From Thermococcus sp. AM4 (GTDB lineage Archaea > Methanobacteriota_B > Thermococci > Thermococcales > Thermococcaceae): a DNA stretch of 64,000 nt. Below the pieces are notes generated by a model that searched no databases, had not been told where the DNA came from, and saw only the letters and a list, made by a program, of their open reading frames with translations. Numbering within the stretch: position 1 is the stretch's first letter; every line of letters begins with the position of its first letter. This document shows, one piece after another, positions 1,624 through 48,148 of this stretch. The stretch is taken from positions 248,001-312,000 of the forward strand of contig NC_016051.1 in the NCBI RefSeq assembly GCF_000151205.2, in the 5' to 3' direction. The translations under genes and the position numbers were made by a program.

Positions 1624-2769
1624 TTATTCTCCAAACTCCTCCGCCCACTTCTCGTATTTCTCGATGTTTTTCCGCGTCAGCGGGCTCTTAATTCTCCTAA
1701 AAGATGTCTCAAAATCCTCCATTTCAAGGGGCCTGACCTTCAGCCTGAGATCCTTGACTTCCATGCTCGAGAGCCTTTCCAGGTCGGCGAGCTCTGGATT
1801 GACGTCTTCGAGCATGTGATGAATGGCCATGCTACACAGGTTGGCTATCTCCCTGCCCGAGTACAGCCGTCTAACGCTCTCCTCAGCTATGACATTGAGG
1901 TCAAGCTTTGAGATGTCCAGCCCCCGGGTGTGTATCTTCACGATTTCCCTGGCGGCTTCTTTGTCCGGTAGGGGCACGTATATCCTCAGCGGAAACCTGC
2001 TGAGTAAAGCCTCATCTAAGTCCCACGGCGTGTTCGTCGATGCCAGTGTGAGAACGAACTTTTCTTCCCCTCCCTTGAAGCCGTCTATCTCTGCCAGAAG
2101 AGTGGCCAGAGTCCTCCGGGTCGCCTCATGGACGTTCTCCCTTTTTAGGCTCAATGCATCAACCTCATCGATGAAAATTATGCTCGGTGCTTTTTCTTTT
2201 GCAATCCCATAGAGGGCGCTTATCAGTTTCGATGACTCACCGTAGTATTTACTCAGAACGTCGCTGGCCTTGACGTTGAAGAACGTCGCCTTCAGGCTTC
2301 CCGCGGCTGCACTCGCTAGGAGGGTCTTCCCCGTCCCCGGCGGGCCGAAGAGCAGGATGCCCCTCCAGGGCTTTATTGCTTCAGGCTTCTTCGCGAAGGC
2401 GAGCGCGACGTTTTGGGCCAGAAGCTTTTTCACCTCGTAGAGTCCACCGATGTCCTTCCACGTGACGGCCGATTTTGATATGAGCCCCTCAACGTAGGAA
2501 CGGTACTCATCTTCGAGGCCCGTCCGCTGAACGTTGCCAGGGGATGCCGTGCTTGGAGGCTTTGATTTAATCTCTTTAGCAGCCCTCTCCCAGCTCTCCG
2601 CCTTTTCCAGGTAGAACTCCCTCTTCCCCGGGACTTTCTCGGCGAGAACCCTGAGGATCCGGGCGCACTTGAGGGCGTATTCCCTCGCGGCCTCAAAATG
2701 GCCCCGCCCGAGGGCCCTTTCGTACTCCCTTTTGCACTCCTCAAAAAGGGATAGGTAGAGGGACTGCAT
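1624..2769 (-). CDS. Vps4/CdvC-like AAA ATPase with MIT-like N-terminus
   Basis: 381 aa. Residues about 1-75 form a small three-helix, Ala- and Tyr-rich region resembling an MIT domain. The AAA module follows a short linker, with Walker A GPPGTGKT near residue 140, Walker B IIFIDEVDAL near 196, a sensor stretch ASTNTPWDLDEALLSRF, and a C-terminal helix KYEKWAEEFG like that of Vps4-type ATPases. Known Vps4/CdvC enzymes pull ESCRT-III filaments apart through MIT contacts. The gene follows the Snf7-like gene at 2771 by one base, which suggests translational coupling, and it is a clear paralogue of 11080-12285. Start ATG with AGGGG site. The AAA assignment is firm; the membrane-remodelling role is inferred from domain order and neighbours. 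Confidence 0.88.
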   Translation of the reverse strand: MQSLYLSLFEECKREYERALGRGHFEAAREYALKCARILRVLAEKVPGKREFYLEKAESWERAAKEIKSKPPSTASPGNVQRTGLEDEYRSYVEGLISKSAVTWKDIGGLYEVKKLLAQNVALAFAKKPEAIKPWRGILLFGPPGTGKTLLASAAAGSLKATFFNVKASDVLSKYYGESSKLISALYGIAKEKAPSIIFIDEVDALSLKRENVHEATRRTLATLLAEIDGFKGGEEKFVLTLASTNTPWDLDEALLSRFPLRIYVPLPDKEAAREIVKIHTRGLDISKLDLNVIAEESVRRLYSGREIANLCSMAIHHMLEDVNPELADLERLSSMEVKDLRLKVRPLEMEDFETSFRRIKSPLTRKNIEKYEKWAEEFGE

Positions 2770-42557: not shown

Positions 42558-42608
42558 ACCGCTGACCGTAATCTATTCCGCCGACGGCGAGGGTACAATC
42601 CCTCGCAC

Positions 42609-42736
42609 GGGCTCGGTCAACCCGCCTCCGCGAGGTGGTCGGGTTCGATGAGCGGAGCGTGCTCACGCCGAGCCCACAGGGCCGGGAGCATCCACCCGCG
42701 TGAGCGGTGAACGCGGGCCTCTGTGCCCGGCCCACA
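42609..42736 (+). ncRNA. Two-hairpin archaeal H/ACA guide RNA
   Basis: Hairpin 1: lower stem GGGCTCGG (42609-42616) with CCGAGCCC (42668-42675), followed at once by ACA (42676-42678). Its upper stem CTCCGC/GCGGAG encloses GA and TGA placed as in a K-turn. Hairpin 2: GGGCCGGG (42679-42686) with CCCGGCCC (42726-42733), then ACA (42734-42736); upper stem CCCGCG/CGCGGG closed by the K-loop TGAGCGGTGAA. Upper stem to ACA is 16 nt in hairpin 2, as known archaeal H/ACA RNAs need. A TATA-like TTTTAAA at 42552-42558 would start the RNA near 42580, adding a small 5-prime hairpin (42587-42606). Such RNAs guide pseudouridine formation in rRNA with Cbf5, L7Ae, Nop10 and Gar1. Targets not resolved. Confidence 0.85.
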
Positions 42737-42879
42737 CTCAGGCCATCTTTCGAGAAATCCTCCGAGAATTGAAAACCTCTTCAGAAAACCGCTGCCTTTT
42801 CTCAATCCCTTTCATAAAAGCCCTTAACTCCGCAAGCCTTTTAAGGGTCATGAAGCAAAAATTTCATAGGGGTGAATAC

Positions 42880-46151: not shown

Positions 46152-46781
46152 ATGCCGGTCAGGTTGATAGCCTTCGACCTCGAGGGAACGCTCGTGAAAT
46201 CGGTCTCGGGATGGGTGGAGCTCCACAAACGCTTCGGCACGTGGGAAAAGGGCCGCGAGTACGCCGAGATGTTCTTCAGGGGTGAGATCGACTACCCCAC
46301 GTGGGCGGACCTCGACGCCTCCCTCTGGCGGGGGCGGAGACGGGAGGAGATAATGGAGTGGGTGGAGAGCGTTGAGTACATGGACGGGGCCTTTGAGCTG
46401 ATCGAGTTCCTCAGGGAAAGGAACTTCAGGATAGCGATACTGAGCAGCGGGCTCATGTGCCTGGCCGAGAAGGTGGGGAGGGAACTCGGGGTCGATTACG
46501 TCTTTGCCAACGAGCTTGAGTTCGACGAAAACGGCGTAATAACCGGAAGGGTGAGGCCGCACGTTGATTTCCAGGGCAAGGGGAGAATACTGCGCGAGCT
46601 CAGGGAAAAGCTGAGGCCAGAGCTCACCGTTGCGGTCGGGGACGGCTACAACGACCTGTCGATGTTCCGCGAGGCCGACGTGAGCATAGCGATAAACCCC
46701 CACGAGGGCGTTGAGGGTGACCACGTGGTCGAGAGCCTGCACGAGGTCAGGGAGATAATAGAGGGCCTGCTCGAGGAGTGA
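46152..46781 (+). CDS. HAD-superfamily phosphatase, phosphoserine phosphatase-like
   Basis: 209 aa. Motif I is FDLEGTL, with Glu where most HAD phosphatases have Asp; motif II LSSG; motif III Lys in QGKGRIL; motif IV VGDGYNDLSM. The SerB-like layout with a helical cap (about 20-75) fits a small-molecule phosphatase. Whether phosphoserine is the substrate is not settled by sequence. GGGGGTGAGG site; TATA at about 46112-46121. The promoter is divergent from the KaiC-like gene. Confidence 0.9.
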   Translation: MPVRLIAFDLEGTLVKSVSGWVELHKRFGTWEKGREYAEMFFRGEIDYPTWADLDASLWRGRRREEIMEWVESVEYMDGAFELIEFLRERNFRIAILSSGLMCLAEKVGRELGVDYVFANELEFDENGVITGRVRPHVDFQGKGRILRELREKLRPELTVAVGDGYNDLSMFREADVSIAINPHEGVEGDHVVESLHEVREIIEGLLEE

Positions 46782-46809
46782 ATTTTTTAAGGCCAAGCCC
46801 CAATCCCCG

Positions 46810-46871
46810 TCGGGCCCGGCTGCCCGCCCTCTCCGCTGAGGAGTGATGCGGGGGTTCCGGTCGGGCCTACA
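46810..46871 (+). ncRNA. Single-hairpin H/ACA guide RNA
   Basis: Lower stem GGGCCCGG (46812-46819) pairs with TCGGGCCT (46861-46868, two G-U pairs), followed at once by ACA (46869-46871). The upper stem TCTCCGC (46830-46836)/GCGGGGG (46848-46854) is closed by the K-loop TGAGGAGTGAT, which has the same layout as TGAGCGGTGAA in the 42.7-kb RNA. Upper stem to ACA is 14 nt, the required spacing. A TATA-like TTTTTTAA at about 46783-46790 would place the start at the foot of the stem. Targets not resolved. Confidence 0.82.
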
Positions 46872-46928
46872 GGGGATGATGACCTTTTGCTTTGCCGAGC
46901 GGTGACGATCACGCCCTTCCCTGACCCC
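46872..46928 (+). ncRNA. C/D-box guide RNA directly after the H/ACA RNA
   Basis: Terminal stem GGGG (46872-46875)/CCCC (46925-46928). C box ATGATGA (46876-46882, perfect), D-prime-like CCGA (46895-46898), C-prime GTGACGA (46902-46908, one mismatch) and D box CTGA (46921-46924). Guides are 46883-46894 and 46909-46920, each 12 nt, as in archaeal box C/D RNAs that direct 2-prime-O-methylation with fibrillarin, Nop5 and L7Ae. The RNA begins at the base after the H/ACA box and ends at the convergent peptidase stop codon. Confidence 0.85.
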
Positions 46929-48148
46929 TAAAGTCCGGCCGTCTTCAGCACTAGCCACCAGAACACGTCGCCCCAGAAGAACGCTATCAGGAAGCCGATG
47001 AAGATGCTCGGGGCGAAGGGCATGGCCTTTTTCCTGAGGAACCTGTTCTCGATCTTTCCTTCCTCAACGAGTTTCCTCAGCCTTTCAATCTGCTCCCTGG
47101 AGAGCCCCTCGGCCGTCGGGGACGCTATAACCTCCTCTCCGGCGGGGGAGGTGAGGGCCCCCAAGTTGCCCTCCTTCAGGGCCCTAGAGAGCAGCTCCAA
47201 AAAGCCCGACCGGTCTCGCTTAACCTCGCCGTTCTCGAGGTAAATGGTCTCGCCGAGGATGTCCCACTCCCTGAGCTCCTCAACGGTCACCTCCTCAACG
47301 AGGGCCTCCTCGCGGAGAACCTTGACGATCGAGAAGAAGACTTTGAAGAGGTAGAGAACCACGAGGAGCTTGAGGAAGCTGTAAACTGCATCGGCCCCGA
47401 TGAGGTAGGTGAGGTAGGCGAAGGAAACCAGACCGAGGGCATCGCCGACGCGCCGGTACTTTCCAAAGGCTATCAGGAGAACCACCGTTATGAGGTAGCG
47501 CACGGGGGATGGAACGCTCATCCCGGCCTTCTGGAGGAGGACCGAAACCCCTATTCCGGCCATGAGCCAGAGGGCGACTTCAACGGACAGGTTGGCCTTC
47601 TCAAAGAGAACCTGTTTGAGTTTCTCCGTCTTTCTCCTCGCTATCAGTACGCCCAGGGCGTAGACGAAGAGGAACGGGAACACCGCGAGGATGCTGTTGA
47701 AGAGTATCGCGATCGGATAGAGTGGATACCTGACTTCGTAAGGTGCCACAACGCCCGCGTAATGGAGAGGGTACGGTAGGAGGGCTGAAAATCCGGCCAG
47801 AACGAGAACGTCGCCCGATGCCCATGCCCCGGCGTAGTAGAGTATCAGACCGAGGATCAGGCCAACGAAAAAGCCTATTATCCCTGCCAGCGCCAGCAGG
47901 ACATCGCCCGATCTAATCCCCAGGTACAGGTAGAGGAGTATTCCAACCTCAACGGCCGGAACCGGGATCCTGGTTAGGATGGGGTTCAACGGGACTTCTT
48001 CCTCTTCCTCAAGCCCCTTGAGCCTCTCGATCAGGGCTAAGAGGGGAAAAACGTGGTTGTCGAAGATGAAACCGGTCTTGAGGTCGGTGTAAGATGTTAG
48101 AAGACCCGCCAGTGACCCAACTAACAGAACGAGGAAGTCCGCGTTCAT
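46928..48148 (-). CDS. Archaeal prepilin peptidase (A24 family)
   Basis: 406 aa with many membrane helices. The two catalytic aspartates of the family appear as TSYTDLKTG (about residue 22) and WASGD (about 113). It is longer than typical PibD/FlaK enzymes, with a soluble charged region (about 285-375) before the last helices. The enzyme cuts class III signal peptides of pilins and archaellins. The pilin-like gene 48164-48328 lies just upstream in the same orientation, a likely substrate. ATG with GGAGGT site. Confidence 0.9.

Follow-up and report, generated by a model that had tools for sequence, protein, structure and literature searches.

Between two convergent genes of Thermococcus sp. 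AM4, a box H/ACA and a box C/D guide RNA follow each other on the same strand. This locus raises the question of whether the two RNAs are separate genes or the products of one promoter, and whether RNA made jointly is then cut between them. In the window, by which we mean the whole 64,000-nucleotide stretch of DNA analysed, the gap between the HAD-like hydrolase gene and the A24-type peptidase gene is occupied by a TATA-like element and the guide pair. The features are as follows:

46152-46781 (+): HAD-like hydrolase gene, upstream (PF00702 / PF12710); its stop codon adjoins the TATA element
46783-46790 (+): single TATA element TTTTTTAA, from the sequence and the conserved A+T peak
46812-46871 (+): H/ACA guide RNA, ortholog of Pab21 (RF00065 match, covariation, model R1 78.1 bits)
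46812-46868 (+): H/ACA hairpin proper, read from the sequence
46869-46871 (+): box ACA, end of the H/ACA RNA, read from the sequence
46872-46928 (+): box C/D guide RNA, snoR9 (RF00065 match, model R2 65.0 bits; contig positions 294872-294928)
46872-46875 (+): GGGG, 5' strand of the C/D terminal stem, read from the sequence
46876-46882 (+): box C, ATGATGA, read from the sequence
46883-46894 (+): 12-nt D' guide CCTTTTGCTTTG, its core CTTTTGCTTT complementary to own 23S 204-213
46895-46898 (+): box D', CCGA, read from the sequence
46902-46908 (+): box C', GTGACGA, read from the sequence
46909-46920 (+): 12-nt D guide TCACGCCCTTCC, its core CACGCCCTTC complementary to own 23S 52-61
46921-46924 (+): box D, CTGA, read from the sequence
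46925-46928 (+): CCCC, 3' strand of the C/D terminal stem, read from the sequence
46928-48148 (-): archaeal peptidase A24-type gene, convergent (PF06819, ORF list); its stop triplet at 46928-46930 shares the last C/D base
42580-42747 (+): HgcF / Pab35, three-hairpin H/ACA guide (RF00058, 154.5 bits)

The head-to-tail contact reported in the initial annotation is exact to the base: ACA ends at 46871 and the C/D RNA begins at 46872, and no nucleotide separates ACA from the C/D terminal stem. Both RNA classes had been named correctly, as the boxes are legible in the sequence and a single Rfam family spans both halves. Using cmscan, we obtained a match to RF00065 (snoR9) at 46812-46938 (+) with 106.8 bits, above the gathering score of 90, and an E value of 6.3e-24. 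The match is full length (model positions 1-128 of 128) and includes the H/ACA half, although Rfam types this family as C/D only. The tandem in the window represents the Pab21 + snoR9 unit in Thermococcus. In P. abyssi, the transcript annotated as snoR9 (230,449-575(-), 127 nt) reportedly begins with Pab21 (PMC4652768), and these coordinates denote the same place as match G004 in the present search. At this P. abyssi ortholog locus (L006), a second, divergent C/D RNA (snoPyro_CD, RF00095) was observed at 1685-1742 (+), about 60 bases upstream of the pair. The H/ACA-C/D tandem arrangement is already documented in Thermococcales, whereas we found no description in the open-access literature of its history of loss and inversion, which is apparently a new detail.

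Separate covariance models were used for the two halves, R1 for the H/ACA RNA and R2 for the C/D RNA, in 94 Thermococcales genomes. A strong H/ACA RNA (at least 50 bits with R1) was detected in 62 genomes and the C/D RNA in 85. This retention, together with covariation in the hairpin, shows that the tandem did not arise by chance. Among 28 distinct H/ACA sequences, 96.9% of the hairpin cells were paired, and both-side changes numbered 37 compared with 12.6 in shuffles, with 0 of 500 shuffles reaching as high a value; slid controls all collapsed. The helices backed by covariation comprise nine pairs in the lower stem and six in the upper stem. The RNA has the features of an H/ACA sRNA, namely a lower stem, an internal pocket, an upper stem with an apical K-turn/K-loop, and an ACA located ~14-16 nt past the pocket. 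The pseudouridylation-pocket strands in the window are GCCCGCC and UUCC, and the ACA and the pocket bases UUCC and GCC were invariant in the 28 distinct sequences, even though these pocket bases are unpaired in the hairpin. In the C/D half, boxes C, D', C' and D with guides of 10-12 nt were present and conserved in 24 distinct sequences. Its terminal stem was paired in 81% of cells, with two-sided changes at three pairs, and sliding controls scored nearly as high. An insert of ~11-18 nt, mostly a GC-rich hairpin, was observed between D' and C' at nine loci (L052, L053, L056, L057, L060-L062, L088 and L089); here the short K-loop is extended to a longer stem, and boxes and guides are unchanged.

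We searched the rRNAs for target sites, counting an exact 10-bp core as a guide-target match for the nearly invariant C/D guides. The sole exact rRNA match of the D' guide core CTTTTGCTTT was own 23S 204-213 (0.011 expected in shuffled rRNA), and that of the D guide core CACGCCCTTC was own 23S 52-61 (0.027 expected). The former core was found in 83/83 C/D sequences compared and the latter was identical in 82/83; bases outside the D core varied freely, while the cores stayed constant. The initial annotation had looked to target matches of the two 12-nt guides. This expectation held for the conserved 10-nt cores, which match one site each, but not for the full 12-nt guides, whose best rRNA site was not set apart from that of shuffled guides when mismatches and G-U pairs were allowed. 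According to the N+5 rule, the C/D guides are predicted to direct 2'-O-methylation of G207 and G55 of 23S (own numbering). For the H/ACA pocket, the core UUCC + CCGCC had its sole exact match at own 16S 864-874 (0.028 expected in shuffled rRNA), and the pocket-complementary pattern GGAA-UU-GGCGGG occurred at a single site, own 16S 864-875 (0.017 expected). Within GGAAUUGGCGGG, the first U (own 16S U868) is the predicted pseudouridine; we take it to be E. coli position 920. The residue following this predicted site is a U, in agreement with the U reported to follow the target U of Pab21 (PMC3726423). The H/ACA guide may be weak, because substrate modification by Pab21 RNPs in vitro stayed <50% (PMC3726423).

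The base composition upstream of each RNA points to a single promoter. In 61 distinct linked upstream sequences, A+T content reached 0.97 at -27/-26 before the H/ACA RNA, within a conserved peak from -27 to -25. The corresponding region before the C/D RNA (-25 to -28; 47 distinct linked sequences) lies inside the GC-rich hairpin and contains no A+T run. On this profile, a promoter of the C/D RNA's own at linked loci was rejected, and the earlier statement that no second promoter fits between the two RNAs is borne out. At loci lacking the H/ACA RNA, an A+T peak of 0.88-1.00 was found upstream of the C/D RNA, between -28 and -25, indicating that the spacing from the element to the leading RNA is preserved, whether this is the H/ACA or the C/D RNA. 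Two C/D-only loci (L077 and L081) showed no clear TATA run by the pattern used, and at two others (L088 and L089) the C/D RNA directly follows the peptidase stop codon. Judging by these exceptions, the C/D RNA can probably also be made by read-through.

The orientation of the cassette provided further evidence. It runs with the peptidase gene at 64 loci and with the HAD gene at 10, always between the same two convergent genes; these 10 inverted loci are the window (46783-46928), L039, L040, L041, L044, L055, L077, L079, L081 and L082. Six of them, including the window, retain an intact pair with the element in place, so the promoter, the H/ACA RNA and the C/D RNA moved together; the remaining four are C/D-only. 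Most of the inverted loci group as a single clade when a tree is built from the two flanking proteins; G093 and possibly G001 stand apart. All 62 intact H/ACA copies abut a C/D RNA. The joint transcript considered in the initial annotation is thus well supported, because the A+T peak moves to the C/D RNA when the H/ACA RNA is absent and because the cassette flips as a unit; the single promoter-like peak, the linkage and the report on the P. abyssi ortholog (PMC4652768) add to this support. From these sequence comparisons, we conclude with a probability of roughly 0.88 that the tandem represents two rRNA-modification guides that share a promoter and are transcribed as a single primary RNA.

The two halves differ in their retention. 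The C/D RNA lacked an intact H/ACA partner in 23 of the 85 genomes, with the H/ACA RNA absent in 19 and visibly decayed or half-deleted in four, and no H/ACA RNA without a C/D RNA was found among the 94 Thermococcales genomes. Loss of box sequences in relatives, which the initial annotation had named as evidence against the tandem, was therefore confined to the H/ACA half in these 23 genomes, whereas the C/D boxes and guides stayed. According to the flanking-protein tree, loss or decay of the H/ACA RNA happened independently no fewer than five times in the recent past (G041/G067, G054/G064, G056, G066 and G091/G092), and most of these genomes have close relatives with an intact pair. G056, whose H/ACA RNA is decayed, can be set beside the intact G060, and the C/D-only G041/G067 beside the intact G020/G072. 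The C/D-only state was also found in groups g4 and g2, which we take to be the T. litoralis-like and the Palaeococcus-like group, respectively. Four loci (L117 in G055, L118 in G050, L119 in G034 and L122 in G063) lack the entire cassette, and the convergent genes are almost in contact; no other copy of the C/D RNA was found in these four genomes. Nor was the C/D RNA detected in 17 genomes of other families of the same phylum.

Relocation of the H/ACA RNA in genomes lacking it at the locus was considered and rejected, since the weak R1 matches inspected in G050, G054 and G064 were HgcF hairpins. The weak match in G093, the sole representative of genus g6 in the sample, was likewise rejected: it is a different two-hairpin H/ACA RNA without the UUCC pocket (G093:C6:14298-14355 (-), locus L083/L093), and it has a zero-spacer ACA joint of its own. 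A pattern search of genome contigs returned mostly Thermococcus MAGs already sampled. Three pattern matches in unrelated bacterial records were dismissed as chance, as the neighbouring genes were absent.

We then considered whether the primary RNA is cut. The initial annotation had held that processing right at the boundary would be needed. As stated, this is unsupported, because HgcF in the same window joins its second and third hairpins at ACA without a spacer (42676-42679) and because three-unit archaeal H/ACA sRNAs linked by ACA have been described as single RNAs (PMC3726423). By analogy with this class of single multi-hairpin RNAs, the direct contact of ACA with the C/D stem would be compatible with an uncut composite guide, a molecule of ~117 nt on which an H/ACA RNP and a C/D RNP sit together, as on the eukaryotic U85-type scaRNAs. 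The annotation of the P. abyssi RNA as one 127-nt transcript (PMC4652768) fits such a molecule, and two adjacent protected RNPs would leave exonucleases no free RNA to trim. On the other hand, the halves are genetically separable, as the 23 genomes with a C/D RNA and an absent or decayed H/ACA RNA indicate, and the spacing of ACA and box C is not fixed (3-7 nt). Moreover, the ends of C/D RNAs are reportedly set by RNP protection with almost any flanks (Tripp et al., reviewed in PMC7994747). We therefore regard the uncut composite as a serious but minority possibility, and at least partial separation near the ACA / terminal-stem joint as fairly likely.

The recurrent loss of the H/ACA half with retention of the C/D half, together with the weak activity of Pab21 RNPs in vitro (PMC3726423), might suggest that the hairpin is mainly a leader that stabilises the C/D RNA from its 5' side, with marginal guide function. 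A mere leader, however, would not need the unpaired pocket bases UUCC and GCC, which are invariant and match one rRNA site, and we consider this explanation improbable. Less probable still is a chance contact of two independent genes with separate start sites: both halves are complete guide RNAs in themselves, and 19 genomes have the C/D RNA alone, but the A+T-rich element that C/D-only genomes have before this RNA is missing there at linked loci, and the element and both RNAs stay together through inversions.

Under the reading of one promoter and one primary RNA, the start site would coincide with the first base of the H/ACA hairpin or lie very close to it, ~25 nt past TTTTTTAA, as the position and conservation of this element suggest. 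The H/ACA part would associate with L7Ae, Cbf5, Nop10 and Gar1 to form the predicted pseudouridine at own 16S U868, and the C/D part with L7Ae, Nop5 and fibrillarin to methylate the predicted 23S residues G55 and G207. The two particles most likely assemble independently on the nascent RNA, and general nucleases may then part at least some of the RNA near the joint. In this view, the C/D half is under strong selection, and the H/ACA half rides ahead of it as a losable element. Closely related Thermococcus with the pair intact, the H/ACA RNA decayed, the C/D RNA alone, or the cassette inverted or deleted constitute a natural experiment. Comparing these states would test directly whether guide RNAs that are joined have to be cut apart, and what causes one of the two to be retained while the other disappears.

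Several known systems resemble this arrangement in part. In archaeal dicistronic C/D transcripts and tRNA-C/D fusions (Tripp et al., PMC7994747), a promoterless C/D RNA likewise lies behind another structured RNA, but that RNA is either a tRNA or a further C/D RNA. In the tRNA fusions, moreover, the 5' end of the C/D RNA is created when the tRNA 3' end is processed, a step without parallel in the tandem. HgcF / Pab35 (RF00058) shares the head-to-tail joining of guide modules at ACA with zero spacer; its modules, however, are all H/ACA, with no C/D module. The closest likeness is to Pab21 + snoR9 of P. abyssi, in which an H/ACA hairpin is directly followed by a C/D RNA with the same boxes and guide cores, and one transcript is reported, although the Pyrococcus copies lie outside the peptidase/HAD gene pair, in another neighbourhood. 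That the Thermococcales Pab21-snoR9 RNA stays uncut and acts as a single particle guiding pseudouridylation and 2'-O-methylation of rRNA alike, as an archaeal counterpart and possible early form of composite scaRNAs, is an idea we offer with some doubt. U85-type composite scaRNAs combine an H/ACA and a C/D domain in one RNA, as the tandem would, but their domains are nested and their target is spliceosomal RNA, whereas the domains of the tandem follow one another and its predicted targets are rRNAs.
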